Shown piece after piece: positions 318-64,000 of a stretch of DNA of 64,000 bases; position 1 is the stretch's first letter; every line of letters starts with the position of its first letter. The stretch covers positions 682,501 through 746,500 of the forward strand of contig JAXDDX010000018.1 of NCBI GenBank assembly GCA_034670405.1, read 5' to 3'. The translations under genes were made by a program, and so were the position numbers. Under the pieces are notes generated by a model. It was not told where the DNA came from, made no database searches, and was given only the letters and a program-made list of their open reading frames with translations. The DNA comes from Hoplostethus atlanticus. Lineage: Eukaryota > Chordata > Actinopteri > Trachichthyiformes > Trachichthyidae.

Positions 318-22579
<22,262 letters not shown>

Positions 22580-27790: not shown

Positions 27791-30700
27791 TTAAGTCCAC
27801 AGCTCTACAGGGGCCATGCCCTCTTTGCTGCCCAGTGGAGGCAGCAGGTTCTCCTCACACAGGAACCTAAGGGGGAAGTGGACCAGCAGCCCTCGGATGG
27901 CCTTCAGCTCCTCTTTTGCCTGCTCAGGGTCTGTGTCACAGAGACGCTCCTTGCTGCAATGCTCCTTCAGCTCTCGCATGTTGTGGACAGCGTTACAGGG
28001 GAGGCAGTTGAAGACCTGCGTCAGGATCACAGCGTGGAGCAAAGGAGAGCAAAGGTTACACATTCACTGGTTAAGAAAAGAAAGATCTAGGAGGTATAAT
28101 ATGAAATAATACAAATAATATACAATTTTCATTTGATTAATACCTTGTCATAAATTGAGGCATTTAATTTAGCAGGTGCATTCCAGGCCAAGAAGAAGAA
28201 TTCATCACTGATTGGATCATCGATATTGATACTGGGGTCTGAAGCAGCTCCTACAAGAACCCTGGTAGGGAAATACACATAGGCCAGAGGTTTAAATATT
28301 TCAGACAACAGTGCATTCAAACAATAGCCAGGCTTACTGTTAATAAGCTATTTTTGTACCAATTTTTCACATTATATGGTTTAGAAATTCACAATTCTCA
28401 AGTAGAGAAGGAGAAGGAGAAGGATAACTATGCTTGCCTAAAATTGTCATCTGAGATGGTTCCACTGTAAACCAGAAAATTCATAGTCATGCTTGAAAGT
28501 TCGTGAACACAACAGAAAGGGGTCATTATTTCATACATTGTATAGGAATAACCTTATTAAAACTTATAAAACCTTAAAATCTTACTGAAGATATCCCAAT
28601 TAAAGAACATGCAGAGATCTCAGATATCCCTGTGTGCAAAAATATATGAACTCCTTCCATCAATAACTTGGCACCTCCTTTAGCAGTGACGACTTGGAGT
28701 AAAGGTAAAATTGGTAAATATAGATCCTTTATTTCAGTCCAGTTCAGCTCATTTTGATTAAATAAGGATTACATGGTGAAAATTCAAACTTTCAAGCATG
28801 ACTGTGCATGGTATCTGGCTAGCTACCCGTTGGCGTTCTGTAGTTGAGTTTTAGTTAGGAGTTCAATATGTTTGTTTATGTGCATATTTGGTCAAGTATG
28901 CTCACAAAACGTTGTAGAGAATCACCTAATCGCTAACCCGCTTCTCCATTAATTGTGTAGCTGTGATACACTTGTACTCAGCTGTACTAGCCTTGATTAG
29001 CCTCTATTTTATCTTGACATATAGGTGGGTGTTGTGCTCCCTTTATAAACTGAATCACCTCTGCAGAAGTAGTAACCCCTCCATGATCGCACATACTGCA
29101 GTTTACAGTCACAATGCCCTCCCAGTAGCTGCTTATTGTCCTGACCTGAAGCACTCTTTGCGCAGAGCAAGTGTGAGGGGTCCTGCCTGGTACTCCTCTC
29201 CTCCCATGGTGGACGGGACCCTCTCTTCATCCTCCACAATTACTGCCAACTCACTGTCTCTGGTGCCCAGCATACTGCGGTCATTGATGTTAGCCGAGCC
29301 TACAACACAAAGTAGAGTGTACATCCGTTCACAGTCTGTCCTGTGCAGTCATCATTCTTTTCAAACCACTATTCACAACATTACGCAACAAATGAAATAC
29401 CAAAAACAGGAAATATTTTCGAAGATGGGTGCTGCTTCTCAAGCTTGCACCATTCCTCCAGAGTCAACAATCTATTTATAGCTCAGCTCTTTATTTGAAA
29501 TGAAACAGTACTAGGTACGTACAATGGGAATCTGATAACTTGCCCTCAGCCACAAGCATGTCAACTACAATGTGCAAACCGCCTACTGAGTTAGTTATTC
29601 AGAGTTATGGATTAAGTCTCCACCAATGGTCAGCTGTGAATCCATAAGCTAGTACAGCTTCTAAATATTAGGTTTCTTGGAAATGCTGTCAACCCCCTTC
29701 CTGTAATTAAAAGCATTTTGTACCACATTGCGCTTACCGTCCGCTGTCCCCTGGGCTTTGGACCACCCAAACAAAGGAGCTTGCAAAATGTCATCCTCTA
29801 AATCGCTCTTTAAAATATTTTTTTACAGTGATGCTTCTGTGTAGTTTGTGTTTGCCCATATAGTTTTACTTTTTACTTTAGTTGTATTTGCCAGTTTTGA
29901 AAATTGCTATGAAACTAAATTTAAGTCCATAATAATCATCATCATCATCATATTCAGACTTATTTTCAATTTTTGCACAGAAATCCCCCTCCTCCTGTCT
30001 TTGTTCCCTCATGTAGCTCTCTGTTAAGGCCCAAACACACTGGACACAACTTTTGACATGCATCATTGGACGCACCTCGTTTGATGTTTCTATGGTGCAC
30101 TGCAGGTGGGAGATTTGAAGCATCAACACCAAGGCACTGGCATTTGCACTCCGCCACCACAATGTGTGATGATTACTGTGACATAAATTGTACAACCTGG
30201 TATAGTCTGCTCACAGTCTAGCCGAGCTGCCAATGGGTGATAATTAATCAAATCCAAAAACGTGCTGTAATATAACTGCAAATTAGGATACAGGATACAT
30301 AGATTATGTATCAAAAATATGCAACATAACACGGACATAGCCATCTAGATAATTACTAAGTCGAACATATCACTTTATCCTTTTTCCTTTTGCACTGTGG
30401 CTCGAGATACCATGAAAAACATCCAGGCTGGTCCTCTGTTGACACTCCCAAAATCAAACCAAATTCGGAGTAAATGGGTCAAGGCAGTCTTGAGTGCACG
30501 CTTGGCCATTGAAAACAATGAATGTGAACGTCTCACGCTTCCAGTGCGTTTCTGGCTTTACAGTGTCTAGTAGATGTTTCTCTTTACTCACCAGACACTA
30601 TCATTACTTCTGAAAAACATTTAGACCTCAACAGAAGCCAGCCCACCTGCCAAGTGTGGCTTAAGTAGTGTTATAATGCTGATTCTTGTGGAGGGAGATT

Positions 30701-36401: not shown

Positions 36402-39400
36402 ATGTCTGCACGCATTAAATACCTGCACTTTGGCTTTCCTGGAACGAGGCACAGTGAATGGTAGTTCATCAGCAGTGCTGTGAGACTTGGGCAGAAGGTA
36501 GGGGTAGAACTCGTCCTTGTACTTGTTCTTAAAGATCTGGAGCAGACAAAACAATTGAAATGAAAGTCAGATATTTCTTGCACTTCCATTTAGACATGCA
36601 AAGATTGTCCTCTGCAACTCTTGTTTTGAAGTCTGACCTTGGTAAAGTTCCAGCGTTGGATGAAGTGGCGGGCCAGGTCCCTGGCTGCTCTGCCATGAAT
36701 AGCTACAGACAGGTCACGCCATGGCATGCGAGGCACTTGAGTGCGGTCAAAGTTGTCTGAAAAAAATAAAAGGCAACGGTTTCAACACTTGTTTAGTCTG
36801 CGTCTGTGTGCTTGCACGTCTGTGTGTTTGTGTATGTGTGTGTGCCTGAGGGAGGAGATAGTAAAGGAGGTTTAGAACGTGTACCATCAAATGGTCGGTC
36901 CAGTTGGATCCAGTCTTTCCTGATAAAGTTGCTGTAGTCTTTGCCCAGCCACAGTTTACTGTTGCCCGTCAGATCCTCGGGGTTCTCCGTTTCCTGCACT
37001 GGCTCTGATGGCTTTGGACTCTCAGCCATCCCATTATCCTGGTTAACAGAGACATCTGTTTGTGTCTGATATAGCAAATACTCATTGGTTCACGAATGAC
37101 CATGAAAATATACTCTAATGACAATCAACGAGTGAAAAATGACTATCAGAGTCTAAACTTTTAATGTAACAAAGCACTTACATCTGTGGTATCCCTTGGC
37201 TCTGCCTCTAGGTGGTTGGCCGTTTCTGCAGGGCCCAGGTCAGTTAGTCGGTACAGGCTGTCATCCCACCTGCCAAACGCCAGGTCAAGGCCCCCCACAA
37301 AGGCTACCGTTTGGTCAATGGCCACCATCTTCTCATGGTGAGCCCACAGGAACACCACAGATGACACATGATCGGGATGTCGCATCACCTGATGGACATC
37401 AACGGGGAAAAACAGACATGAAAATATGAGATGTAGCTTATGCTGCACAAGCTGTTTGGAGAAATCTGAGGGGCATTTTATGTTTTTTTGGAGCTGGATC
37501 CATTAACTTCAATACTTTGGAAGAAGGCTGAGATGGAACTACAGGGCCAATTCACTGTGAGTTTGGTGGTCCTACAAATTTCAATGAAGTTTCGACTGGC
37601 ATGGGGGTGAATTTTCATTTTGGGGTCAACTATTCCTTCAACAGTTGTATTCTCCCTGCAGTGCAGTGCCAGTAATTGTCTTCACATGAGTATCAAAATG
37701 TGTGGAGAGCAGAGTCATTCTAAATCTTGAGACCTTGATGTTGGGGTGCATATTCATCAGAGTCTTCTTGCTGTGATCACTGTTGATACCCAGTGCTAGC
37801 TCCACCTCTTTGTAAAGCAGAACACACACTTTCACATCTTGTTCCTGCAGAGAATGGACAGAAACAAAGAGAAATGACATTTGAAAAAAAAAAAAAAAAG
37901 GACCAGGAAAGGTAGAGGGGCATTTGAAAACCATTTAAAAGATATAAAATGAGGAGAGAAAAATTCAGAGAGGCTCTGTACTGCTTTGCGTTTGAGTATC
38001 TCATCCAGGCGCCAGTACGTATCAGTAGCCGGTCTCTTCAGGAACACTTCAGGGCTGAGCCTGAGAGAAAGGACAGAGAACACTCTCCATCTATATTTAT
38101 ATGTTAACACTATTCAGCTGATGCTACAGAATATTTTTGCGATACAACATGTATGAAGGTAAAATAGAGACTCTACTCTCAAGGCTCATTTTACAGAATT
38201 CAGAATGATCAATTTACAGATGTGGATTTTGTTCCTGTGGATACCAAATCCAGACACGAGTACAGATCAAATCTTTCTGAGCGTTAAGATTCAAGTCCCT
38301 GTTGTACCTTCATAATATGTGCCAATTTCTTTTTCATAGACTGAACCCTATTCATCAGCATATCCTTGCTGACACTCACCACCAGTCTGTGATGAAGATC
38401 TCCTCCTTGGCTTGTTCGAGGGCATCGGCCAGGTCTTCAAAGTAGCCACTACCATTCACATACCTTTAAACAAAATCAATAAACAACTCAAGTTTAGCAA
38501 TTGAACACCGAACACACTCGGAAGGACACTGAAGAATGACATGCAGTGCAAATCTCTGACCATTTAGTGAGTGTGTCCTCCCGTGGCGGAGCAAAGCCCT
38601 GGAAGCGTTGCACTTTGAGAAAGTCAGAGGCATCTGCCAGCCCGTTGATTTCATGGCTCCACCACTGAGCCTGTCTATAGTTGCTGCATTTGATGATCAG
38701 ATTTCTAAATAAAAACAAAACACACCTAACATGTAATCATAGAATAACTTCATACATAAATATTTACCATCAATACATTATTTGCGCAGGAGATCCCATC
38801 ATATAATGTCATATTATACTTGAGGCATGGTGACCTCCATATGGAAAGCAACACATTGGTTGATGTTTTGACTCCTCTTGCAATGTGATCATGAGCACTT
38901 TTGTTAACGCTCCCCCCATTTCTGAGTGCCACGTGTATTTGAACAGATCTGGATTATATTCAGTAAGTAGTCATTGCTTGTATAGTCAAAAATGCATATT
39001 GTGCAATTCCATCTAAAAGTCTGCAGTCCATGATATTTTATCCCCAGGGTTCTCCTTCCATCGTTTTTCCATTTGTTTCTCAGAGGATTCAACTGCAGCT
39101 GCACTTGGCTCTAAATTATTCTGAAGCAGTATTCAATACATGGTTAATACAACCAAATATGGGTCTGAGTGATCATTTTAGGTTCATCCTTCTCCTCATC
39201 ATGCTCCTGCTACAGAGCTCCAAGATGAATGACTTTTCTCCCTACTTATTTACCTACTGAACTCTGGGAAGATTTTTTTGGGGGAAAAGACCTACTTGAG
39301 TTGTCCATAGCCTTCTTGAAGCTCCACAGCAGGAAGATGATAACTCAAAGCTGGTTTCACACCTTCAACCCTATCCAAATAATTGTGGCACCCGGAAATT

Positions 39401-47800: not shown

Positions 47801-50800
47801 AAAACAAAACAAAACTATCAAGATGCAAGTCAAGTCATTAAGACACAAAACGTGTTTTTTTCTTGATATTGCATTGTACAACAAAATTGTATGGCACTTT
47901 TATTCTTTTTAAAACGGGCAATTTTTTTTGGAGCAACATATATGGGAAACACTCTCAGCAACAGACAACAAAATGTTCCCATGTGATTAAGGCAACAACG
48001 CTGAGTCCACTCTTCCGGCGCTGTTTCCCATTACATTTCCCCTGCGTACAATTGGCTCAAGATATTTTTCTGACTGGATCATACTTTTTTACCCCATTAC
48101 ATTTACCTAACCTGTAGTTACTAGTTCTTTTAAAAACTACCAACGTACAAAACTTGAAAAACTCACACTTTTCTCTCGGTACTAACTGAACAGGGAATTA
48201 TTACTCCATCAGTTCAACTTTTCTTTAAATGTCTGAATCCAAGCCAATTTCTTCCACCACTTAAGGTTATCCATACAATACCAGCAACTAGGTCCATGTA
48301 ACCCTCCGGCTATCAAAAGGTTATTCTGACTTAAGCAAAGGTTCAAAACACTGAAGGTTACGTTTTCTCGTCCCCACCCATTCTCTACTTTCCTGCAGGA
48401 CGGCATTCCACGAAGAAACGGCACGTAACAAGTATTTTACGTTACAAATCTCCGCCAACTCAGCTGACAACAGTCTTTAGCAAAGGAGACCTATTATCAT
48501 GCCTCGGTGCTGTGAACCCCGCAGTTAGTCAAGCTTTAAACGTTAAACTCTGTAGTCGACTGACTGGAACAAGAACTCAATGGGGTGGAATACGTGGTGA
48601 AGTCCGATTCAGGCCTACTTTACTTACGTTCAGTTCAAAGCACACAGCCACGACTCGGACACAGCCCTTCCGCACCCGGGACCGCCAGATAAAACGTGCA
48701 AAAGTAAAACTAGAAAGTATAATTTCATCCTACGCCACTCGGTGTTTTCTTAGGAGGAGGAGAGTGTGTATCTGTATTCCCCAGAGGTGATGCACACACT
48801 TTCAAGTCCCTCCCATTCGGTGCCAAATCAGTCCCACGAAAGTCAATGTGCACGGAGGAGACAATAAAGGGAAATATAGAGAAACACTTTAGGCATCTCT
48901 CGCGCAACACAGTACATTTATGGTATTTTCACTGTTAGCTCATGAGGCAATTGTAATGAAAGGGTAGGGCGCGTTTTGAGTGCAGTGGGTCGTGTTTCCA
49001 GATTTGAGCAGCTGTGTAGAAAGCAGAGTGATAGGGCATTCACGCAGAACTGGGACCCTGCTCACGATAAAATAAGTGGACTCCTGTAGCATAACAAGTC
49101 CCAACTGGGCGCCAACCGGGGAAGAAAAAGCAGGAATGTACACAGAGTGGAGAGTCGCAGTCAGCTGACATTCGAATGACAAATGAAAAATCTCTCTATT
49201 ATCGATAGGCAGTGGCTCAATATCCAGTGGCTGTTGATTCTAACTTGTTAACAAGCAGAAGCCTATATCACCTTTCATTTAATAAAACAGAATGGAATAC
49301 GTTGGCATCGTGCCAGCCAAACATTCTCCAGTAACTTATTTGTTTCTAAAAACATGCCCACACCTAAGACATAAATAAAACTAATATAATTACATGGAAA
49401 TAACAAGGGGATGCCACATGTCAGACGATGTGTGATATGACCGCGGCTGCTGAATCGACAGCTCCTGCAGATGCTGTGGCCCATTAAGAAACGAGTACAA
49501 ACTGCTAAAGCAGAGGCTGACAAGTTTATACTATGCGCAAAAGGCTACTTGACAAATGAGAACAGGAATACGTGGCATTCACTGTCTGAGTTTTCAACAC
49601 TATGCACATTGAATATCTTACCGAGCCACCTCTTTTTCCGGCTAGCACAAATGTCCACTATTTTCTTTGGTGACAGTTTTGTCCTGTAATGTAAAACCTG
49701 CATACATTTTTAGCTGAGGCCGCTAGGGGGTGCTGTGAACACCCACAATCGACTAGTGTCGCAAGCCGGAATAAATATTTGACTTCCGGATGCATTTTTC
49801 ACAGTAAAAGCTTTATTGAAGAACATAATATGCTGTTTTTTAGATTAGCACCAAAATCAAAGAATTGAAGTCAAAATGTAGGATGAATTTTGTTACCAAC
49901 TCGATGGTTTTGACAGATCGTAACTTACTAACGGGTGCTTCACTGTGTTCCACAGTAAGCTCCTCGATTTCAACACGATTTAACATTGGAGTACCCATGT
50001 GTTTGTAACATTATTGTAAAGCGGAAAAGCATGAATCGTCATCGTTAACTTTACCCTGATACTGTGGGAAAATGCCGGTGTTATACCGAAATTGGTGACC
50101 ACTCGCGCTCATGTGAACATGCTCGCTCTCGCTAAAACGTGCACGCGGAGCGCGCTCAATAATGACATACACAGACACATATTATGATAATCACAAATGC
50201 AAACATAAGGTATTATGTTTCACCATCACAGATTTTGCTTTGTTTGAGCCTGTATTTTACATAACTATACTCAGGTCACATATTCTGACTGCCGCCAAAT
50301 TCAGCCTATCATAAATGGTGACCCCAATAGTTTTGCCTTCCTGTTGTCTGCAATCACAAAGAATCACACATTTTGAAAAATTACATGTCACAGATAGGGT
50401 TGTATTTGAATGTAGCATATCACTCACATTAAGTTTTGTAACACAAACATTTTCTCATAGTGATAAATACAGTAGAAGGACAAACGCCCTAATAGATTAG
50501 CAGACATACATGAAGTATGTAATGTCATGATGCTGTTATGATAGCAAAATATAGTATCTTGGCCCAATTTAACATATGATAGACCTCAGACATAACTGAT
50601 TTGACATAAAATGCATTGTTAAGTATAAGGCTTTTCCTCATATTTGTTTGATGGGCTTTTTCAATATATGTTGAGATAGGTCACACATCGTAATGTATAA
50701 GTGGTAAAACAAGTGAAGCAAGTCATGATGCACAATAAAATATTTATTTTTAAAAAATCATGGCACAATCATATCTAGATGATATCCCTCGAGGCCATCT

Positions 50801-52621
50801 ACTTCTAACAAGGCTTCCTAATAAATAAGTCATAGTAAGAAGAGTAAGGCTCTGATTCAGAGTTGGCTGGCTTAAGTTACGTGCGTAAATTCTTCACATA
50901 AGACAAGAGACACGCAGGGAAATTTATTTGTATTCAGAATTAAGCGTCATGGTTGCTTAGCTGTTATTTTGCCCTATTCTGCCCTCTGGGTTTCCAAGCT
51001 GTGTCATTAGAATCTCACACATCCTTTAAAAACAAAAAAATAACTTGTTATTAATTCTGAGAACATTATGAAACGGTATAAATGGTGTACTAATGCTTCA
51101 TAACAAGTATAAACCATTGTTGGCCAGACGGGGGTGCTATAATTAAAGCACACATTTTTAACACTTACCATATAACTCTTACACTATAAGGCCAGATTAA
51201 ACAAAAAATACAATTATATATATAACTAGATACGCAATCCTGAGGCAGAAAATCCATGTGCTCAGTGTATTTCTGTGATTTGTCATCGTTTTTCCAATGG
51301 CAGTATAACTATAAGTGCATTTAGTTGTTCCTGAGGCTTACTATGTTGGTGTTACTTTCACCTTTGCAAAGATACAACATTTAGCAAGATTTACAACTCT
51401 TTAAGAGAATTGCAAACTACAGCAACTACAATACAGTAACATCAGTATAAACTCCCCAAAAGACCTTACCGCCTTACTGTAGCACTCTCTTTTATTATCT
51501 TTTGACTGAGACTGTTTTGTCCAACTATCATTTTGCTTAGATACTTACAAAGGTATGTAGATGTTAAGTTTTGCAACTGTCAAGCTAGATTGCTTGCTGA
51601 TTTGACACTTGCTGAGCTCGGCTAAGCTACTAGCCATGTAGCATTTTATGGTAAGGTTAGCCTGTTTGGAAATTTGGAATGTGTATAATATGCAAGTTAG
51701 CCTTGCTGTCCATTTTTCTCCTGTCTGTACTGAGTTCCTTTATTAGCCTTAAGTTAACTTGATGTAATTGGTTTTAGTATCACCAACTCCAAAACAACAT
51801 ATTAGTGTGACTTGTATGGTTGTTGTGTAAGTGTAGTTTCCCAACTGTGTAATTTATTCTTAGCTAGATAAGCTAGATAGTTTATCATTGGGAAATCCTA
51901 AAGGTTACAAAATCAATGGAATGAAGGAACTGAGACTATATTTTAAAGGCCCAATCCCTTACTGCAGTATCTCACCCCTTGATGAAACACTGTTGCTTCA
52001 CTGCTAGTTTTGGTTACGTAGTGATTTATTGTGTTTTCTATGTATTTTTAGGTTGTAAAAGGTTTGTTTACATTGCTGATTTTTTGTAGACACTAAGTTA
52101 TTATATGTAAAGACAGTTCCATAAAGCTTATTTTCTATTCCATCATCAAATACTTGTGAAAATACCTAAAATATACATGGTTAAAAAGATTCCAGACAGT
52201 ATCTTAATTTCTTCTGGATCAATGAAATTGGTCTTATTCATATCCTCAGTGGGCAACTTGATGTAGAATTTTATTTTATTATTTTTTATATTTTGTTTCT
52301 ATTCAAAATACCACTTGCTTCACTAGACTTGATCCACGTTCTCTCAGGAGCAGATAGTGCATCTCTAAAGAACTTACACTTACACCTTGCAAGTTTGAAT
52401 CAAAACCCTCTCAGGACATGCCTGTAGTGCAGCTGCCCGAGGAGCACTTAAAAAAGATGAGCCTGAGGTCTGAATATGGACACACACAGATTTGGTATTA
52501 CATCCCTGCTGCACGGACTTAACTCAACCCTGAATCGTAGCCTGAGAGGAAAAGAGCAAGACCGCTAACTCTTATAGACAGCATGAGGTGCAATGAAGGT
52601 TTTGAGAGTGCGAAAGGCTTT
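44830..52621. other. Spacer between pld2 and chrne
   Basis: 7.8 kb without a recognised gene. It should include the pld2 promoter and non-coding first exon, but neither can be placed. 45412-46030 is relatively GC-rich with long open frames on both strands (118-122 codons) that resemble no family known to me. 46907-47003 is a trinucleotide repeat. AATAAA on the minus strand at 52270-52280 is a candidate poly(A) signal about 350 bp past the chrne stop. Confidence 0.45.
46907..47003. repeat. AGT/AGC trinucleotide repeat
   Basis: About 95 bp of TAG/CAG/AGT triplets. It gives artificial poly-Ser and poly-Leu frames that are not genes. Confidence 0.9.
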
Positions 52622-54495
52622 TTAACTGGGGGCATATCTTTTGTTCTCGTCAGGAAATGGAAATTCTGGCACCCGGTTGAAGACTCCTTTTAGGAAGATT
52701 GCCACTGTGCCGAAGGTGAAGAGGAGAAGGGCAGCCCAGAAACACACTTTGTCAATCATCTTTCCAATCAGTACCCAGCTTTCCATTTCCTGTTTGGAAA
52801 TAAAGGTGAAAGAAGATATAAAAATCACCCTCAAATTAGATGCATTGTTGTAGGGATTTGAAATTGCATAAGAGCAAATGTAGAGAAAGGAGAAGGAGCA
52901 CTAACAGATCCAATATCGTTTTGTTGTCTTCTGCCCTCAGCAATGAAGTTGCAGGCCTCCACGCATTCCTTGATCTCGGGTGCAGCTTTGGCCAAGCTCT
53001 TATACAAGTTGGCTGTGCTGCTGACATCTATGCCATCCACTAGAGGGAAGGAGACACCTACAGTTAGACAATGTCATGCTGTGCCAAGCTACAGCATTAG
53101 CTAAGGCAGAGAAAAAACATAGTCCCTACGAAGTAGTCAAGCTGCAGTTTATGTGTAAATACCAACTACTGATGTACTGATTGGGGCTTAATGGCTGGTT
53201 AGATCTAAGGGCTGGAAAATGCAAGTATAGTTTTAAGACTGAGCTATAAGAGCAATTTGAGGAAGAGTAGATTTCTTACCAATTGATCGTGCAAGACCAT
53301 GCTTCTCTCTTTGTTTGTCAAACATCATTTCACTGCGTGGTTGTTTCAGCACATATTCCTCTGCTCTCTGCATTAGGCCGAAGGAGCTGCGCCGCCGCTC
53401 CCTCACTCCATTTACCTCTGCCTCCCCCTTACCTTCATCCACCAGTGGGGACATGCCCAGGATGCGAGGGATCATGTCCAGGAACACCTGACGGAGGCAG
53501 AAAAGGTAAGAGTGGTTAGTCCACATAAATGTATCCTTAAATAGGCAACGCTTCTTTCACTCTAGGGTGTAGCATCTACATACATTTTTGATGGTGTGGG
53601 ACATAGTGTGAGTGGTAGGACTGCGCAGGGAGAAGTTGAGCACCACAATTTGGTTGGTAGCGATGAGAGTAGTCACACACATGACAAAGATCAGGTACCT
53701 GAGACATTAGAGGAGAACTGGGTTGGAAAGGAGGATGAGACCATATGGAATAAAGACAAGCATAAGAGATGAACAAGCCAGGGTGAGAAAAATCCAGAGC
53801 AGGTTATATAGTAGAGGATGCTGCAGTGAAAGGTCTCTTGAGGCCTCTCTGAGATATTGTAGATGAAACACACAGGCATGCACTGACTCACTTGACGATG
53901 AGAGGGACAGAGAGAGATGTTTCAGGGACCTTCTGAGCAATAAGAAAGAGGAAGACAGTCTGAGCCAGCAAGACAGAGATGGACACAGTCAACTTCTGTC
54001 CCCCAGCTGTGAAGGGGACAACAGAGAGTTAGAGGGTGGAGGACGTGGACTTTCTTTATTTGGACCAATAGAATTAGCCCTAAACTTACTGCTTACTTAC
54101 TTTACTACTGGCTGAATTTATGGGAAACAAACATCATAAGAAGAAATTCATTTTTATGTGTAAGGTGTAGCAATGTAAGCAAGACATTATGTGAGTGTGG
54201 ATATTCTATGACATCTTTGAAATACTTCCCCATTTACAACCTTGATTGTCTGCGTGGTAATGGCCTTAGGGAATTAAACATTGGTGGTACTGACCTTGTG
54301 CGGGTAGGAAATAGGCCAGTACGACCAGGGAGGAGATGAGGGCGCAGGGAAGGATGATATTTATTATGTAGAAGAGAGGCTTCCTCTGGATGATCAGATT
54401 GAAGGAGATCTCTTGATACTCCGGGTCATCGAGGGAATAACGTGAGTTGATCACTTTCCTGGCTGGACGATGCACAATGGCCCACTCGCCATTCT
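52622..54495 (-). CDS. chrne: chrne exons 7-12: transmembrane segments and cytoplasmic loop
   Basis: Exons: 54295-54495, 53892-54006, 53584-53698, 53280-53487, 52906-53039, 52622-52789. M1 about 246-270 ([12 protein letters not shown]), M2 about 277-297 ([20 protein letters not shown], pore lining), M3 about 312-333, M4 about 475-497 ([20 protein letters not shown]). Exons 10-11 encode the M3-M4 loop with an amphipathic helix before M4. The exon 11 donor is GGATCT|gttagt. Splice phases agree throughout. Confidence 0.93.
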
Positions 54496-56907
54496 CTAAA
54501 AGGGTGACAACATACTAGGCTAGAGTGCCAGGATACCTCCTGGAATACGAGCTAGACCATAAAATGTAAAAGACAGAACTTTGATACTGTGTGTGTTTGT
54601 GTGTATGTGACAGAGAGAAACAGAGAGCGAGAAAGACAGAGAAGAAAAGACAGAGGAAAAAAGAGAAGACGGAGACTTCCCACACACAGAGACACAAAGA
54701 CTGTGTGTTTGAGTGTTGGACATGAACACACCTGTGAAGGCCTCCGGGTCGATGTCCACCCACTCAATAGTCTCCCCATTTGTTTGTACAGCCAAGATGA
54801 GGTCCACTTCATTGGCACTGTATGTCTGGGACCTAGAGTGGAAAGGAGCAGATAGAATAGAATAGAATAGAATAGAATAGATCCAAACTAATATATTCAA
54901 TCATATTATTGCATCATACCTGAATATTAGGGTGCAGTTTTGATAATCAAATGGGAAGTAGGTGGTCTCAATGGCACAAGTGCTGCGAAAGATAGCAGGA
55001 GGCAGCCAATACATCCAACCATTGCTGTGGATCAACACATTGGCATAGTACGCCACGTCAAACTGGCCATCAATGCTGCAGAGAATGGGGGAAAACAAGA
55101 GAGAGAAGAGTTGACTACAGGCATTAAAAACAATTTGACTGTTGCAAGCAGGGAAAAGAGGCAGTATGGCGCTCCTGTCCGGCACTTACTTGTTCTCAAG
55201 GACAATGTCAGGGAGCCAAACAGTGTTGAATGGCACACGAATAACCTTAATGCCAAAATAATTAGATGAGTTCCAGGCAAGGCGATAATCACTCCATTGC
55301 TGTGGGTGACATTGGAGAGAAGGGTAGTCATCAGTGATGTAAACACACCAATTGGACAGAAAAGAGGGCTGAATAAGTGAGAGAGCCTTAAGTCCTATAA
55401 AGAAAATGAACATGACTACCATGAGCCTTGCAAGATTTTGGCAAGAAAAATTCTAAACAACAAAAAAACAAGAATGGAAGTATGGAGAGAGGGAAAACTC
55501 ACAATCTCAATCCACACATTGGTCGTAAGAGTCTCCTCCTTTTCATTCTGTAGTAGAAGCAAAGAAGTAGTATGGATATCTGAGGTGTAAGTCTTAATTG
55601 TGCATTAGTTTGCTGTTTCAGTGATCAAAGAGCCAAATATGAACCACAGATGATACTGACATATGTACTTATGTCAAAAGGCTGTGCAGAATGGTGTTTC
55701 ATTCTAGTTTCCTATGGGAATGAGGTTGAACTTGTGCTCCATAGAGCATCCTGTGTCACCTTTGCAGTTTAGTGCTGTTGGTATAATCTACACTCTTGGG
55801 AAATTTTTGTTTTAGCAGGTAGGAAGAAGGAGCTCTCACCAGGGAGATAAGGTTAGTGAGGGTCAGCTTGAGCTGAACCTCCACCTTCTCTTCAGGATGG
55901 TTCACTGGGCGAGTATTCTTGTTGTAGCCTTTAAACAGGGCGCTCATCAACTGTGACTCCTCATTACACTCCACTGCTTGAAGGAAAAGAGGACATAGGA
56001 AATGAGTGAAATAAGTTTAGACTCACGTATCCTGTGAGGGGACAGTTTCCTGAGCTTAAAAATATGTCCAGTAATGTCGTGATAAATAAAAGGGTGGGTA
56101 AACTCTGACCTCCAGTCAGTGATCATCAAAGGCAAACAACCACCAATATGAACAAAATTAATTATATTTCCAGAAACTTATTAATGTATGCTTGTCTTTC
56201 CTTAAATAACCCTAACATTCATATAACTTGTAGTCTTCATAACCATAACTAACTAAGATTTATGTCAGCCTGAAAAAGTGGGTAAACTATTCTGAAAATA
56301 AAACTAAGTTTAGGTGGGTGCACTAACGCCACTACATCTCTGCATCAGCACAGATTCATTCAATTGTCAGGATAATTCTCTCACTCCACTCTTGCCCATA
56401 CAGCAATAAATACATTTTACATGTATTTTGCAATATGTTTTGAAATATGTTTCAAAATATACAAAAATGTATTTGCATTTGAAATATATTCTGAGGGGTC
56501 AAGAGTGTATAGAAGGGAAAGTATTTTCAGTCTAAATTTTGAATGAATATCATGTACATGTTCATAGAATTGTCCAATTTTTTAAAACATATCTCTAAAC
56601 ATATTCTGAAGTCAATTTGATATGTATTTCTTTCAGTATTGGTGTACAAGGGTGGAGTTTTCTGGAGGCTTGAAGGGTGTAAAGATCACTCTGGTGTACA
56701 GATTAGTGCAGCAAAACTTTGAGAGCTGGTTGTTACACTGAAAACACCAAACACAAGACAGGCAGTGAAGATACATTTGATAGATATGGAGGTGGTGAGC
56801 AAATGGATGAAAACGAGTTTTCAACTGCACAACTTACCCGGCACCATTAAAGTCCCGAGAAAAGTTACAACCCCCAAAAATGTCCAGAAGGAACGGGCTG
56901 CCATCAT
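52622..56907 (-). CDS. chrne: Muscle nicotinic acetylcholine receptor epsilon subunit, complete, 12 exons
   Basis: Adult-type subunit of the pentameric ligand-gated cation channel at the neuromuscular junction. Twelve exons join to 1557 bases: 518 residues plus stop, with ATG at 56907 and TAA at 52622-52624. The 12-exon structure equals mammalian CHRNE. Order: signal peptide, extracellular ligand-binding domain, Cys-loop C153-C167, M1, M2, M3, long cytoplasmic loop, M4. Epsilon rather than gamma: the loop segment [23 protein letters not shown] and [13 protein letters not shown] resemble epsilon, and the neighbours pld2 and mink1 are those of CHRNE. Some residues are gamma-like, so sequence alone is not absolute. 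Confidence 0.93.
54732..56907 (-). CDS. chrne: chrne exons 1-6: signal peptide and extracellular domain
   Basis: Exons: 56838-56907, 55840-55973, 55503-55547, 55190-55299, 54920-55075, 54732-54832. Exon 1 is a hydrophobic signal peptide ([18 protein letters not shown]). Exon 3 is the characteristic 45-bp exon ([15 protein letters not shown]), whose Trp belongs to the complementary face of the agonist site. Exon 5 carries the Cys-loop: two Cys 13 residues apart around FPFDYQN. NSS in exon 4 is a possible N-glycosylation site. Two ATGs are adjacent; the first is used here. A second copy of exon 1 lies at 59196-59265. Confidence 0.93.
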
Positions 56908-56960
56908 GCTGTGTTCCCTTTCTACTACACTATATTTCTGTATAAACTTTGAGAGAGAGA

Positions 56961-57066
56961 GTAAGGTGGAGGTTATTTCCAACCCTCTCTCCCCCAGCTG
57001 TCGCTATCCATGGCTCAGATTACACAACAGCCGGGAAGCACTAAACTAGGACTTAATGTCACACTC
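56961..57066 (-). promoter_or_regulatory. Conserved block upstream of chrne exon 1 (copy 1)
   Basis: 106 bp lying 54-159 bp upstream of the chrne ATG. Base for base identical to 59326-59431. It contains the E-box CAGCTG (56995-57000), the type of site bound by myogenic bHLH factors in muscle receptor genes, and TTCCCGGC on the minus strand. Promoter or 5' UTR function is inferred from position and identity. Confidence 0.55.
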
Positions 57067-58204
57067 AGGTCGTCCACAATAATCATCATCATTAGGCAAT
57101 ATGTATCGGTGGTGATGACAGTAGCACATATTATAAAGGTATTTCTCTCTGTCAGTTTACAGAGAGAGGGTGTGAGAGAGTGAGAGAGAGAGAATTTAAT
57201 TCACTTCCAACATAAGTAAATCATGTTGGATAAACAAATTTAAAACTGTACAGACAGAGTAGCAGGGGGACCTGCAGGCTAAATTAACTATTAACTATAA
57301 CTATAGCAAAATTAACTTAAGCAAAATAAGACTGCCTCACTCCTACACTGACAAGGGGAACAGACCGATTTTTGGAGTGTGCCATATGAGTTCCACGGTA
57401 TGTGATGTACTTCTAAATATACAGTTAGGGAAACAGAGATGTGGTCCTTTTAGGTAACTGGAGACTCCAGAAGGCCGGTAATGTGTCTGACGGTCAGTTA
57501 GAGTTCACAAACGGAAGAGGGGCTGGATCAGTCCAGCTTAAACAGCATGGGCAAATGAAAACATCAAAGGGGCAAGAGTATTTTTCATACCAAGTGCACA
57601 TGATACATGAAAGTACACTTTAAAAATACCAATATGCAGTTTTGAAAATGGGGCAGAGCCAATCCAGTGATACAGGCATAAAGCAGGTATGTTTGATAAG
57701 TTCACATTACTAACCAGACAAGTCCCCTCCACCATTCCTCACTGCGTATGCCTCTCTATGCACACGTTTTCTTCCATGTTGGCTGTGTGAGTTTTGAGTA
57801 ACGCCTGGACAGCCTTGCCAGTCCTCCTCATCACCTCCTGTCACTCAGGCAGTAGACAACTACCCTTGAATCTATATGTCTGTCATTGGCTAGCAAGACT
57901 AAAATATTTCTAACTTCTAACAAAGTATCAATAGTTCTAATTCAGATCAGTTATATGAGCGTAGACAAAGCCCTATAAAGGCTTCAGTTGCGGTTTACCC
58001 TGCAAGCAAGAGTGAAAAAAATGTACACAAATACACATCTATAAACAATTAAGCAGGTGCATAAAAGCCAACTCAGCCGAGATTATTATTTTTAGACAGT
58101 AGGGGATGAATGGCATTTCTGTTCAGTGTTCTTCTTGTTGTTGATGGATGCACAGTGACATCAGATGCAGCAATTGTCGCGATCTCTGGATGTTATTTTT
58201 GAGT

Positions 58205-58760
58205 TGATTTATACTAGTTATAATATTTTTCTTGTGGCTCTTGGTGATATTTTAGAAGGACGTCCACTTCTAGGCAGAGTCACTGTTGTGTTAAATGCTC
58301 TCCATTTGTATATTATTTGTCTCACAGTGGACTGATGGAGCCCAAATCTTTTTGATATGACTTTATAACCTAACCCAGACTGATGTGCGATCACTACTCG
58401 CTTCCTGAGCTCCTCTGACATCTCCTTAGATGGCAGCAAATCCTGCATCGTTAACATCGAACTGACTTGGTTTCTCACCTCTATTTATCGGAGTGCCACA
58501 CACATTCCTCCCCAAAGATCTGACCTTTGATTGGTTAACTTCATACCCAATTAATTACCCACCTGATTCTATTTACCTACTTGATTTAACTAATGCAAGA
58601 GGAGGTTCACTTATTTTTGCACCTTTACCAATTTCATTGGTAAATATACCTATTTAATTCAGTTAATATGGGGCTAGTTTTGATTAAATGATGGTAAAAA
58701 TTCAAAACTTCTATAATTGCTCAAGTGGTTCACAAACGTTCACGCATGACTGTATATATG
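58205..58760 (-). mobile_element. Tc1-like transposon fragment with 5' end and transposase N-terminus
   Basis: 58218-58478 encodes, on the minus strand, the helix-turn-helix DNA-binding start of a Tc1 transposase (SEELRKRVVIAHQSGLGYK, KRFGLHQSTVRQIIYKWR, GRPSKISPR). The end near 58740-58758 reads GTTCACGCATGACTGTA, a terminal repeat like that of the MITE at 28484. The catalytic part is missing to the left. Confidence 0.75.
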
Positions 58761-58789
58761 TGTATATATATGTTTATCTAACTGGGTCT

Positions 58790-58975
58790 GCCAAGGAGGT
58801 TATGTTTCCCCCCCCTGATAATTAGTTTGTCTGTCTGTCTGTCAGCAGGATATCTAAAAATGTAGGAACATATTTCCATGAAATTTGGTGGACAGATAGG
58901 CCTTGGGCCAATGTAGAATTTATTAGATTTTTGTGGTAATTTGGATCTGGGATTTCTGCCATTAGAAAATTATAT
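58790..58975. repeat. Common fish repeat (CTGCCAAGGAGGTTATGTTT type)
   Basis: The start GGTCTGCCAAGGAGGTTATG followed by a TGTCTG run and ATGAAATTTGGTGGA matches a repeat seen in many fish genomes. Family name not assigned. Confidence 0.5.
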
Positions 58976-58980
58976 TTGTT

Positions 58981-59140
58981 TATAATAACAACAATAATAA
59001 TAACAACAATAATAATCACAATCATAATAATAACAATCATATTATTATGATTATTATGATTATGAGTATTGCATTATTGTTATGATGATGATGATGATTA
59101 TTATTAGTAGTAGTAGTAGTAGTAGTATTATTATAATAAC
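58981..59140. repeat. AAT/ATC/AGT simple repeat
   Basis: Mixed trinucleotide run directly left of a TTTATATAGCACC repeat tail and the exon 1 copy. Confidence 0.88.
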
Positions 59141-59195
59141 TTTATTTATATAGCACCTTTTGAAACAAAGGTTACAAAGAGCTTACACAACTTAC

Positions 59196-59265
59196 CCGGT
59201 ACCATTAAAGTCCCAAGAAACGTTATAACCCCCAATAATGTCCAAAAGGAATGGGCTGCCATCAT
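59196..59265 (-). CDS. chrne: Second copy of chrne exon 1 (alternative signal-peptide exon)
   Basis: 70 bp with ATG at 59265 and donor GTACCGG|gtaagttg, the same length and phase as exon 1 at 56838-56907. By my reading 7 of 70 bases differ, giving R to H, F to L and V to I, with the other four silent. The reading frame, double ATG and donor are intact, so it could splice to exon 2 (acceptor at 55974-55975) and give a nearly identical signal peptide. It could also be a dead duplicate; expression cannot be judged here. Confidence 0.55.
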
Positions 59266-59325
59266 GCTGTGTTCCCTGATCTTTGTACTACACTATATTT
59301 TTGTGTAAACCTTGAGAGAGAGAGA

Positions 59326-59431
59326 GTAAGGTGGAGGTTATTTCCAACCCTCTCTCCCCCAGCTGTCGCTATCCATGGCTCAGATTACACAACAGCCGGG
59401 AAGCACTAAACTAGGACTTAATGTCACACTC
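59326..59431 (-). promoter_or_regulatory. Conserved block upstream of the second exon 1 copy
   Basis: Identical to 56961-57066 over all 106 bases, including the E-box CAGCTG at 59360-59365. It sits 61 bp upstream of the second-copy ATG. Weaker similarity continues to about 59523. Confidence 0.55.
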
Positions 59432-59689
59432 GGGTCATCACAATAATCATCATTGTCATCGTCAAACAATATCTATCAGTGGTGATGACAATGATACATA
59501 CCATAAAGGTATTTGTCTCTGCTACATAGACTATATGAATCACTTACTATGAATAGATCTTAGAGAGAATAGGTCTTGAAAGTCTGCCATGGTCTGTTGT
59601 CTGTTGGTCTTAATCGTCTCAACAGTTAGCAGCAGAGCCTACTAAAACCTCCAAATGAGAAATCACTGTAATGTTCCTAGAATATTCCT

Positions 59690-60530
59690 ATAGTGTGTCT
59701 GTTGTAGTCAATAGTGAGTTTATGTTTGTGAACCTTACAGAAGGTGGTCATTATTTCATACATTATAGAGGAATAACCTTCTAAACCTCAAATCTTTATT
59801 TTATTCCAAATAAAGAACATGCATATATAAATATATAAGTTAATTGTTTATTTAACTAAACTGGTTTATTTAATAAAATCTCAATTAAGGCTGATCAGCC
59901 TTAATTTGCCGCAGCAGCTGAGTCCAGCCTAAGCCTACCCCCCTCCCTCCCCCCAGTCCGCCACACTCAGTTATCCCTGTGTACATAAATATGTAAACTC
60001 CTTCAATCAATAACTTGTGGCAGCACCTTTAGCAGCGATGACTTGGAGTAAAGGTCTCCTATAGCCACTGATCAGTCTCTGGCATCTTCCATGAGGGAGT
60101 TTCTCCCACTCCTCCTAACAAAACTCAACCAACTCAGTGAGGTTTGAATTGTCTGTTTCAGGTCGTGCCAAAGGATCTCAATTGGATTTAAATTACGACT
60201 TTCACTTGGCCAATCCAAAACACTAAACATCTTCTTCCTGAGCCATTCTTTGGTAGATTTGCTTGATTCAAGAATTCAAGAATTCTCTGGTCTCACTCAG
60301 AATTCATGGTTACCTTAATAATGTCGAGTCGTCCAGGTCTAGAGGATGAAAAACAGACCCAGACCATGACATTTCCATTGGTGGTGGCCAGTTTTGTGTT
60401 GTCACCAAACATGGCATTTTTGATTGCGACCAAACAATTACATTTTTGACTCAACAGACTTCCAGAAAGCTTCAGGTTCGTCCAGGTGGTCTCTGGCAGA
60501 CTTAAGACGGGCAGGGTCTTGGCCTTCAAA
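59690..60530 (-). mobile_element. Tc1-like transposon fragment with transposase middle and 3' part
   Basis: 60293-60529 (minus) keeps the catalytic-core segment MVWVCFSSSRPGRLDIIK and NSE, typical of Tc1 transposases but with changed acidic sites. 59700-60100 matches the MITE at 28484-28805. The 5' end is absent at the right, where DIRS sequence begins. Confidence 0.65.
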
Positions 60531-60629
60531 GGCCAGATGCATAGCTGTAAGCAATCCGGGTTCGGGTGCCATATGCAACCTTCCAGTTGGAAAAGGTCTG
60601 GAAATTGGCCATTCTGACCATTTTGGGGC

Positions 60630-61645
60630 TTCTAGGAGTAGTCTATGGCCGTCTCATTGGACTCTAATGTTACAAGTATTAGAGAGTCGGAGGTTTCTGT
60701 GTGGAGTTTGCATGTTCTCCCCGTGCTCACATGGGATCCTCTTTCACAATAAGGACCCCAATTGAAAAACATGCAAGAAGATTGCCATCTCCTGTCCTGT
60801 CCCTGACCACGACGTGGACCCAAGATCTGGAGCTGTTGGTCCCCGGGTGCCGACACAGAGGGCTGCCTACTGCTCCTGGCCCCTACCCCTGGAGGGGCAG
60901 CGCAAAAAGACAGAGTGCCCTGTCCTAGTGGACTGGTCCTCTCCATGAAGGAGAACCAAAGGGAGCAGTGTGTCGATGCCTCCAAGGTGAGGAGGTCAAC
61001 TTCTGCTCTGCCATACTACATACATAATCTGCCAAACATGGGAGTCTGGGAGTCTTCACACCCCTGAAGGGAGGATAGCAAATCTGCCACACAGTTGTGC
61101 ACTACCGAAAGATGCATGGCCCTAAGGCTTAAAAAGCGGGGAAAGGCCAAAGTGAGAAGCTGCTGTGTCACCCGCAGACATTTGCTGGACTCTTTGCCAC
61201 CATGACAGTTTATCTGGTAAACTGTTGAGGTGTTGTCTGTCCGGATACCAGTTCCTCAGAGCTGGTAGAAAGTGTCTGGGAGTGGGCAATGGGAGGGTAT
61301 CACTCCCAAGAGAACAACCCTGGTTAAATACACCCTCCTCCTCCACGGTTTCAGGGCAAGGAGGCACTGCTTAGACACTCTGACCTTCCTGCTTCTACGC
61401 CACTTGGGGTCCAAATAGAGGCCATTCATCCAGATCTGAAGAGAATGCAAGGCAAGAAGGCCCAACGGTACTACCGTGGATGCTGCCATGAACGTGCCCA
61501 GCAGCTGGAGGAAGAGGTTGTGTTCCAGCTCCTGGTTTTGCTGGAAACAACGTAGAAAGTGTAGCATGGCATCTACATGCTTCGGGGAAGGGGAGACTCT
61601 CATTGACTGAGAGTTGAGAGTCACCCCAAGGTAGACCACCCTTTT
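60630..61645 (-). mobile_element. DIRS-type retrotransposon remnant (RT end, RNase H)
   Basis: The minus strand reads LGVTLNSQSMRVS and LLGTFMAAS (end of reverse transcriptase) from 61639, LKPWRRRVYLTRVVLLG, then RTDNTSTVYQINCHGG (RNase H, about 61195-61244) after a frame change, then EASTHCSLWFSFMERTSPLGQ near 60900-60985. This order is that of DIRS elements, which use a tyrosine recombinase. The recombinase, gag and terminal repeats are not seen. Several frameshifts and stops break it. Confidence 0.7.
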
Positions 61646-63670
61646 GGGCTTTCCTTAGCCCAAACTGAAGTCTATAAAAGTCTTCTATAAAAGGACCTTG
61701 AACTAGTAAGCTTCACCTGTAAAGGTGAAGCGGAGAAATCGCCTGTGGTGTGGCTAATGGGTACATGAATGTATGCATTTTTCAGATATATGGACATGAA
61801 CCAATCCTCCTGTGCAACGGCACAGTTAGTTTACAATTTGTTGACAATTTGTTAACGAGTTGTTGCTATGGAGCTAGTTAGCAATAACCAAGGACTTCCC
61901 AATGAGTGAATGCTTCCAGGTTGGTGCAATGGAAAATCTTCCCATATTTCTGCTTCGTCCGACATGATGTGAATGCAGCAGCAACAAGTTTAGCCCATTC
62001 TCTGGGGTTTGCCAAAAGACAAAATGTAGGAAATTGCAAACTGAAGTAGAAGTTGACAAGGCAGGTTGAGGGAAAGTGGGTACAACAAAAAGGAAAATTA
62101 CAAAACTCCCATCGCAAAATAACTCCTGGAATGCAATCACAGATTGCTGATATATAGCTGTCCATTGCAAGATATCTCTACTATGTAGATTTTAGGGGAG
62201 ACTGGGGGTCATGTCCCCATCAATATTAGGAGAAGGATCAACTGTCCCCCCCAATTATTTCTGCCTCAAGTCTGTATTTTTACTCACTCTGTTTTTATAC
62301 ACACAGTTGAGTTTTCCTGAAGTACATTTTATGTCACTCCTTCCCTTTAAAAATGGGCCCCTTCTTCACATTTTTTTGAATCGCCTTTAAAGGCTTTTCA
62401 TCAACAAATTAGACTGCCATGTTTCATGTTTTCATTGTTTGCCCTTCAAATCAGGATCAGTGTCAGTGTGATGAATCCAGTTTCGCCCCCGAAGTTGAAT
62501 TGAAATCCACGCCTTTGCATCCACTCAACAAACACACACACAGGCTGTAATCATACCATGTGTCTCAGTCAAGTTTAATGGTACTGTGATGTCATTTGTG
62601 ACCAACTCGACTTTAATGTGGATTAATGTGACCAACTGAAACCCTGACAAAGGGAAGGGTTGATAAAGTGGCTGTTTGGTTAACTACTCTAAAAGTAGAT
62701 TTGAGCGATCAAAACTAAAAGAAAGAAAGAAAAACATTTCTTTAAACAGCTTAGCCCTTTGTAGGGCTAAATATTTAAAGTATTCCAAAAGTGTCACATG
62801 TTTTCACAAGGTTTCAGTCTCCCCTCAGTTGCTGCCTGTTTCAAATGTCGTCTTCCATTGGTTGCACAGAATAAAAGCCCCATGACCAGTCCCTCCCTTC
62901 CCACTAATGAATGCCCCTGCTTTCACTTGTCCAGCTCCTCCACTGAAAAATACCATTGTTGAGTCTCTCTTCATGAGCACACATGTGGTTTGGCCAGAGT
63001 GTTGAGTTCAATGTCTGTTCCCCTCCCCCACAGCACCAGCAGCAAATCCATTGATAGGAACTACAATCTATCAGAGGTGATAATGGTGGGAACGCCTTTG
63101 CCATGGCATTCCTGTTTTATTGACGCATCTTACTTTATACTTAAATACATTTTCTCAAGTTCAATATCAGAATTTCTTACTTCAGAAAACAGTCCAGTCA
63201 TTAAACCATGACAATGTAGACATCAAAATTGAGAGTAGCTATACAATCTGAATCACTTGTCATGAAAGATATATTCACAAGAAAGAAGAATTGAAGCCTT
63301 CTTTATCTCTTCTTTAACATAGGTGGACCTTTAGTTATTCCTTGTTCCATAACAACCAGGAAAGGGTAGGGCAGACTTTGTAATTCATTAACAAGCATGG
63401 ATTTTTTTTCTCTGTTCTGCGACTGAATGGAGATTGTGTTGTCCCATGACTGAATCAATACTGGAAAAAAAACAGAGGTTTAGGTTGTCATGACTTTTGT
63501 CATGACTTTTGTCAGGTTTAGGTTGTCATGACTCCATGTAAACAATTTGTTTACATGGAGCTTCTTTGCCACTTCTGTTATACTTTGATATTTCTCCTGT
63601 TAAACTTTCGTATGTCTCAACATGTCTTGAAATTTGTCAAGGTGTCAACACTATTGTTGTTTGTGGTGGT
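61646..63670. other. Right-hand spacer
   Basis: No gene recognised. A 29-bp near-perfect palindrome lies at 63532-63560, preceded by short repeats of GTCATGACTTTT. Confidence 0.45.
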
Positions 63671-63671
63671 G

Positions 63672-63673
<2 letters not shown>

Positions 63674-63708
<35 letters not shown>

Positions 63709-63722
63709 TGTGTGTGTGTGTG

Positions 63723-63767
<45 letters not shown>

Positions 63768-63772
63768 GGAGG
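63674..63772. repeat. GT then GA microsatellite
   Basis: A GT run to 63728 followed by a GA run. The sequence after it (63850-64000) has no recognisable coding content. Confidence 0.93.
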
Positions 63773-64000
63773 GGCTGAAGGGGGCAATGGTGGGAGGAGA
63801 AGAGAGAGCAAGTGTTTACTTGAGCTGGTCAGGAATATAGCACATATATAGAAGATGAGTCTGGAGGAAGGGGGTTACTGGCGGACAGGCTGCATTGGCT
63901 TGCTTTATCAGTCAGTGGCTGGACTCGGCTAATCTCTGGACCCTCAGATTGAGCAACATAACAAGAGACAAGCGGTTTGAAAAGGACAGAGTCAGAACAG

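Follow-up and report, generated by a model that had tools for sequence, protein, structure and literature searches.

A 64,000-nucleotide stretch of the Hoplostethus atlanticus genome (contig JAXDDX010000018.1, positions 682,501 to 746,500 of the forward strand; hereafter the window, with positions counted from its first letter) raises the question of how a muscle acetylcholine-receptor (AChR) subunit gene, likely chrne, came to have two first exons, and why part of the DNA upstream of them is perfectly identical in both copies while its flanks have diverged. The explanation that we prefer as a whole, by a small measure, is that a segmental duplication of about 325 bp doubled exon 1 of chrne together with the DNA upstream of it and the first 10 bp of the intron that follows, leaving two first exons in tandem, 2.36 kb apart, 5′ of one exon 2. 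The identical block would be the core promoter, and its perfect identity would stem from a recent local conversion of one copy by the other, perhaps aided by constraint that kept the block similar. The proximal copy would be both the original and the main start, while the distal copy, if active, would serve as a redundant alternative first exon, whose transcript would splice past the proximal exon and yield the same mature subunit.

The two copies of the unit, 56828-57151 (324 bp, proximal) and 59186-59521 (336 bp, distal), both lie on the minus strand as a direct repeat and share 88% identity including gaps (297 identities, 26 mismatches and 14 gap columns in four gaps), and chance similarity was rejected. 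Homology starts 10 bp into intron 1, runs through the 70-bp signal-peptide exon and stops 244 bp (proximal) or 256 bp (distal) 5′ of the ATG, making the unit larger than the earlier note on this DNA had described. That note had reported the signal-peptide exon and its 5′ DNA twice, in the same orientation and 2.36 kb apart, and the alignment bears this out, with the exon 1 copies (56838-56907 and 59196-59265) separated by 2358 bp and the identical blocks by 2365 bp. When both copies were compared with the whole window by blastn (E up to 0.01, low-complexity filter on), they matched only each other and one 21-bp stretch at 29925, and no third copy of the block was found in the 64 kb. The parts of the locus are as follows.

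52622..55973, minus strand: exons 2-12 of chrne and the introns between them, each GT-AG, and the TAA stop at 52622-52624
55840..55973, minus strand: exon 2, whose acceptor at 55973 is in frame with either exon 1
56828..56837, minus strand: first 10 bp of intron 1 with the donor GTAAGTTGTG, the same in both copies; end of the homology
56838..56907, minus strand: proximal exon 1 of chrne, 23 residues plus one base, 70 bp, phase 1 (from alignment and spliced translation)
56908..56950, minus strand: proximal segment from the ATG to the block, 4 mismatches in 43 sites plus gaps
56951..57066, minus strand: proximal 116-bp block, identical to 59316-59431
57067..57151, minus strand: upstream end of the proximal unit, 15 mismatches in 84 aligned sites
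57152..59185, no strand: the 2 kb that separate the copies, holding ATT-rich repeats and a transposase fragment of Sleeping Beauty/Tc1 type (58218-58484, minus strand)
59186..59195, minus strand: the 10 bp that follow distal exon 1, with the donor GTAAGTTGTG; the homology ends here, against unrelated sequence
59196..59265, minus strand: distal exon 1, 23 residues plus one base, 70 bp, phase 1
59266..59315, minus strand: distal segment from the ATG to the block
59316..59431, minus strand: distal 116-bp block
59432..59521, minus strand: upstream end of the distal unit

Besides the fragment between the copies, a second Tc1/Sleeping Beauty-type transposase fragment was observed upstream of the distal copy (60072-60275, minus strand); the Pfam matches were HTH_SB (1.7e-18) and DDE_3 (7e-07). 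Intron 1 shows inverted self-similarity at 56383-56658 (by blastn, in pieces of 28-82 bp that are 73-86% alike) and may thus contain a small palindromic element.

Both copies of exon 1 begin with ATGATG, keep the frame, end in phase 1 and are followed by an identical GTAAGT donor and identical first 10 intron bases. Joined to exons 2-12, either gives 1,557 bp and 518 residues with all introns GT-AG, and with the proximal exon 1 the gene is an intact 12-exon gene on the minus strand (52622-56907). The start, frame, phase and donor matching the shared acceptor at 55973 that are expected of alternative first exons were found in both. The alignment also agrees with the earlier count of seven differing sites in the 70-bp exons, both with ATG, frame and donor; four differences are synonymous and three change an amino acid (R5H, F10L and V14I). 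The four fall on 16 synonymous sites and the three on 53 other sites (Fisher p 0.046), and third codon positions hold five of the seven (binomial 0.043). In a neutral simulation with seven changes, three or fewer codons were altered in 12% of cases; since 84% of the simulations bring no stop, the open frame in both exons speaks only weakly for their use.

Relatives of solved structure, as mature chains, match the query from its residue 27 onward (chain residue 1 or 2), which lies inside exon 2, and therefore both starts would probably yield the same mature subunit. Exon 1 (residues 1-23 plus one base) would probably be removed wholly with the signal peptide, and only regulation or the signal peptide itself could differ. 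The earlier proposal, alternative promoters for a nearly unchanged protein, fits the exon anatomy and can be sharpened as to the protein, the mature subunit being probably identical. Its suggestion of fibre-type specialisation found no support; in the passages available from a zebrafish study, slow-muscle AChRs lack the epsilon and gamma subunits (PMC9592714).

What distinguishes the block from the rest of the unit is its complete lack of differences. The earlier note had given an identical block of 106 bp; the perfect identity holds, while the longest run is in fact 116 bp (56951-57066 = 59316-59431), the shorter figure perhaps omitting part of a GA run at the block edge. The flanks of the block diverge by 9-18%, with 7 differences in 70 sites in the exon, 4 in 43 between the ATG and the block, 0 in 116 in the block and 15 in 84 in the upstream end. 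When the 26 mismatches and four gaps were scattered at random over 327 columns, 6 of 200,000 trials contained a run of 116 or more, and scattering within the noncoding part only (23 events, 247 columns) produced none in 300,000. The probability of no difference in 116 sites is 1.2e-5, 4.9e-6 or 1.2e-10 at the flank rates of 4/43, 7/70 and 15/84, respectively; the block was chosen as the longest run, a choice for which the permutations allow and these simple probabilities do not. The rates 4/43 and 7/70 are the cautious ones, because the upstream end contains ATC-like simple sequence (seen on direct reading) that may mutate faster. The run of identity is longer than expected in diverged duplicates, as in a gene-conversion tract. 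Inside the block, a CTCTCTCCCCC tract is equal in length in both copies, while in the GA run at the block edge they are 2 bp apart.

Of the two causes offered earlier, constraint or local gene conversion, both are retained, and the balance leans towards conversion because the perfect run has 9-18% divergence on either side; such a pattern would be a better fit to recent local conversion than to constraint by itself. In our judgement conversion, whether or not constraint took part, is a moderately probable cause of the identity, and it would explain at once why the run is perfect, why its edges are abrupt and why the CTCTCTCCCCC tract is unchanged. A mixture is plausible, in which constraint would have kept the block alike and conversion would have completed the identity. 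The proximal copy is taken as the original because it is nearer exon 2, with an intron 1 of 864 bp from its exon, and because at five of the seven differing exon sites the proximal copy has G/C where the distal has A/T, with one in reverse, although this tilt is a weak sign. Certain observations weigh against parts of this explanation. Ectopic conversion in mammals needs more than 100 bp of unbroken identity, and identical runs outside the block do not exceed 23 bp; because of these short runs, conversion between already diverged copies would not be easy and may have needed prior constraint. In addition, the noncoding differences show no tilt from G/C to A/T, with eight in each direction.

Whether the block is a promoter was considered from its position and from its motifs. 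Counted from the proximal ATG it occupies −44 to −159, and from the distal ATG −51 to −166, and because this range spans the ATG distance of N-box variants of human CHRNE (c.-95 and c.-96; available part of PMC11078748), the block may be the core promoter. The N-box of AChR subunit promoters is CCGGAA (available part of PMC7506097), and a near form with one extra G, CCGGGAA, was found at 57031 and 59396. With one mismatch, CCGGGA and CGGGAA occur in the block of both copies, CCGGCA and CCAGAA in the proximal exon and CCGGTA in the distal exon. One E-box, CAGCTG, is present per copy (56995 and 59360). Other results count against the promoter: the exact CCGGAA is absent from 56838-57160 and 59196-59525; a single E-box is about the level of chance (0.61 CANNTG per 116 bp of the window); neither copy contains a match to ETS, CArG, MEF2 or GGGCGG; and TATAAA (56941 and 57132) is on the opposite strand and in the proximal copy only. 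A promoter role may therefore be said to be supported by position and hardly by motifs. An upstream ATG in the context GAGCCATGG was also observed on the minus strand at 57011 and 59376, opening a 12-codon frame that is the same in both copies, and no known structured RNA was detected in 50000-64000 at Rfam gathering scores.

Among the other explanations, the one that survives best, a serious possibility though falling somewhat short of an even chance, takes the distal copy for a dead duplicate, transcribed hardly or never, with a drifting exon and a block that is merely a conversion tract; it overlaps the preferred explanation. The G/C-to-A/T tilt of the exon differences, the transposase fragments that flank the distal copy and the neutral simulations, by which the open frame says little for use, are in keeping with it, whereas the intact ATG, frame, donor and block and the concentration of exon differences at third positions argue against it.

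Purifying selection alone, with both promoters active, nearly every base of the block constrained and no difference since the duplication, appears unlikely. The distance of the block from the ATG would suit it, as would the title of Duclert 1993, which mentions an 83-nucleotide epsilon promoter, and the weak sign of purifying selection between synonymous and other sites of the exon. However, the rate would have to be cut by about 80-90% over 116 contiguous bases (P 0.029 at 80% and 0.17 at 90%), which is tighter than the exon shows at sites that change an amino acid (P 0.0012 with the rate of those sites), and the block includes simple-sequence runs and no exact N-box in either copy. Less likely still is that both copies would be working promoters kept identical by repeated conversion together with selection; the one subunit gene would then have two interchangeable starts, distinct only in a signal peptide that is cleaved off and in their genomic surroundings, and its synaptic promoter would be doubled for dosage or for a particular stage or fibre type.

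An assembly artefact, for example a piece of haplotype left unpurged or copies made alike by polishing, is very improbable; no positive point speaks for it, and it is opposed by the homology of only 0.33 kb, by copies 9-18% apart outside the block, by the 2,034 bp between them (57157-59185 compared), in which blastn (E up to 0.01) found nothing similar to either intron 1 or 59522-64000, and by a window free of N. Weakest of all, a distal exon left over from tandem duplication of the whole of chrne would account for a distant promoter and exon 1 but has next to no likelihood, since homology stops 10 bp into the intron and whole-gene duplication was rejected by tblastn (E up to 1), which found no second exons 2-12 in the window and only one further match of 38 residues (E 0.41).

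The preferred explanation, duplication followed by conversion, concerns a gene that, judged from its sequence, is a muscle AChR gamma/epsilon subunit gene, for which the name chrne is likely. Both Neur_chan_LBD and Neur_chan_memb are complete in the protein (Pfam). In the comparison with solved structures, with scores taken from the best 60 of 327 matching sequences, gamma and epsilon were the closest of the muscle AChR subunits: a gamma subunit scored best at 718.5 bits (an entry labelled only as gamma subunit, which we take to be Torpedo gamma), followed by epsilon (593.4), the best further gamma (587) and the best delta (514.7), scores that do not separate epsilon from gamma. The neighbouring exons would favour epsilon, as human gene order is PLD2-MINK1-CHRNE and the window carries a PLD-like exon at about 37.2-37.4 kb (PLD1 90.8 bits, PLD2 74.7) and a kinase exon at about 15.2-15.3 kb with nearly equal scores for MAP4K4 (90.7), MINK1 (88.7) and TNIK (87.9 bits). 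TNIK and PLD1 are also neighbours in human, with no AChR gene beside them, and the higher score of PLD1 gives no help to the PLD2-MINK1-CHRNE reading. A 95-residue frame at first taken for PLD had no PDB or Pfam match, and the frames 36796-37089 and 9105-9485, at first taken for PLD and MINK1, had no Pfam match. When relatives were sought as fish contaminants among viral contigs, the first 272 residues of the protein gave six pattern-matching stretches, none of them confirmed, and 30 bases of the block gave none.

Further elements were observed elsewhere in the window. The broken frames at 60632-61830 (minus strand), five of which were searched with no Pfam match, presumably resemble a DIRS-type retrotransposon. 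A direct repeat of about 600 bp (12299-12905 and 17154-17740, 95% identity, with a common open frame) flanks the kinase exon near 15.2 kb, and its frame 17519-17806 has no Pfam match. A tandem array at 6532-7109 has an offset of 146 bp and copies 99.5% alike, and an inverted repeat of 327 bp (5123-5448 and 7954-8280) has 98% identity; the frame 5233-5541, overlapping one of its arms, has no Pfam match. A weak PHD-finger match was found at 6274-6627 (minus strand; 20.3 bits, under the curated cut-off of 24).

The duplication is real, and it could allow the gene to start at either of two places and still make one and the same finished protein. Should both starts be in use, the locus would be a small natural test of how a synapse-specific promoter bears doubling with no change of the mature protein, and also of whether conversion keeps such promoter copies alike. 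With a dead distal copy, it would be a local duplication of an ordinary sort that bears a conversion tract.

Compared with the AChR epsilon core promoter (available part of PMC7506097), the block resembles it in its distance from the ATG and in one E-box CAGCTG and differs in having no exact CCGGAA, the CCGGGAA present carrying one G more. For teleost CHRNE, no additional gene duplicates are reported to be retained, and the passages available from that report are silent on a doubled exon 1 (PMC6354393). Among the papers listed in the literature searches, none describes a duplicated chrne first exon in its title or the opening of its abstract. The gene resembles CHRNE in its complete Neur_chan_LBD and Neur_chan_memb, in its 12 coding exons, the number in human CHRNE, and in the PLD-like and MAP4K4/MINK1/TNIK-type exons of the window, and differs in that exon 1 and the upstream region are doubled. 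Tandem alternative first exons, or alternative promoters, that arise through local duplication are a known kind, and the locus shares with them two first exons, each with an ATG and a donor, and one shared acceptor; the difference is that the copies here would encode the same mature protein. Interlocus gene conversion between tandem duplicates is likewise known, and the tract of perfect identity, abruptly bounded within copies that have diverged, is like it, although here no donor or direction can be named and unbroken identity outside the tract is short. The event is of a known kind.

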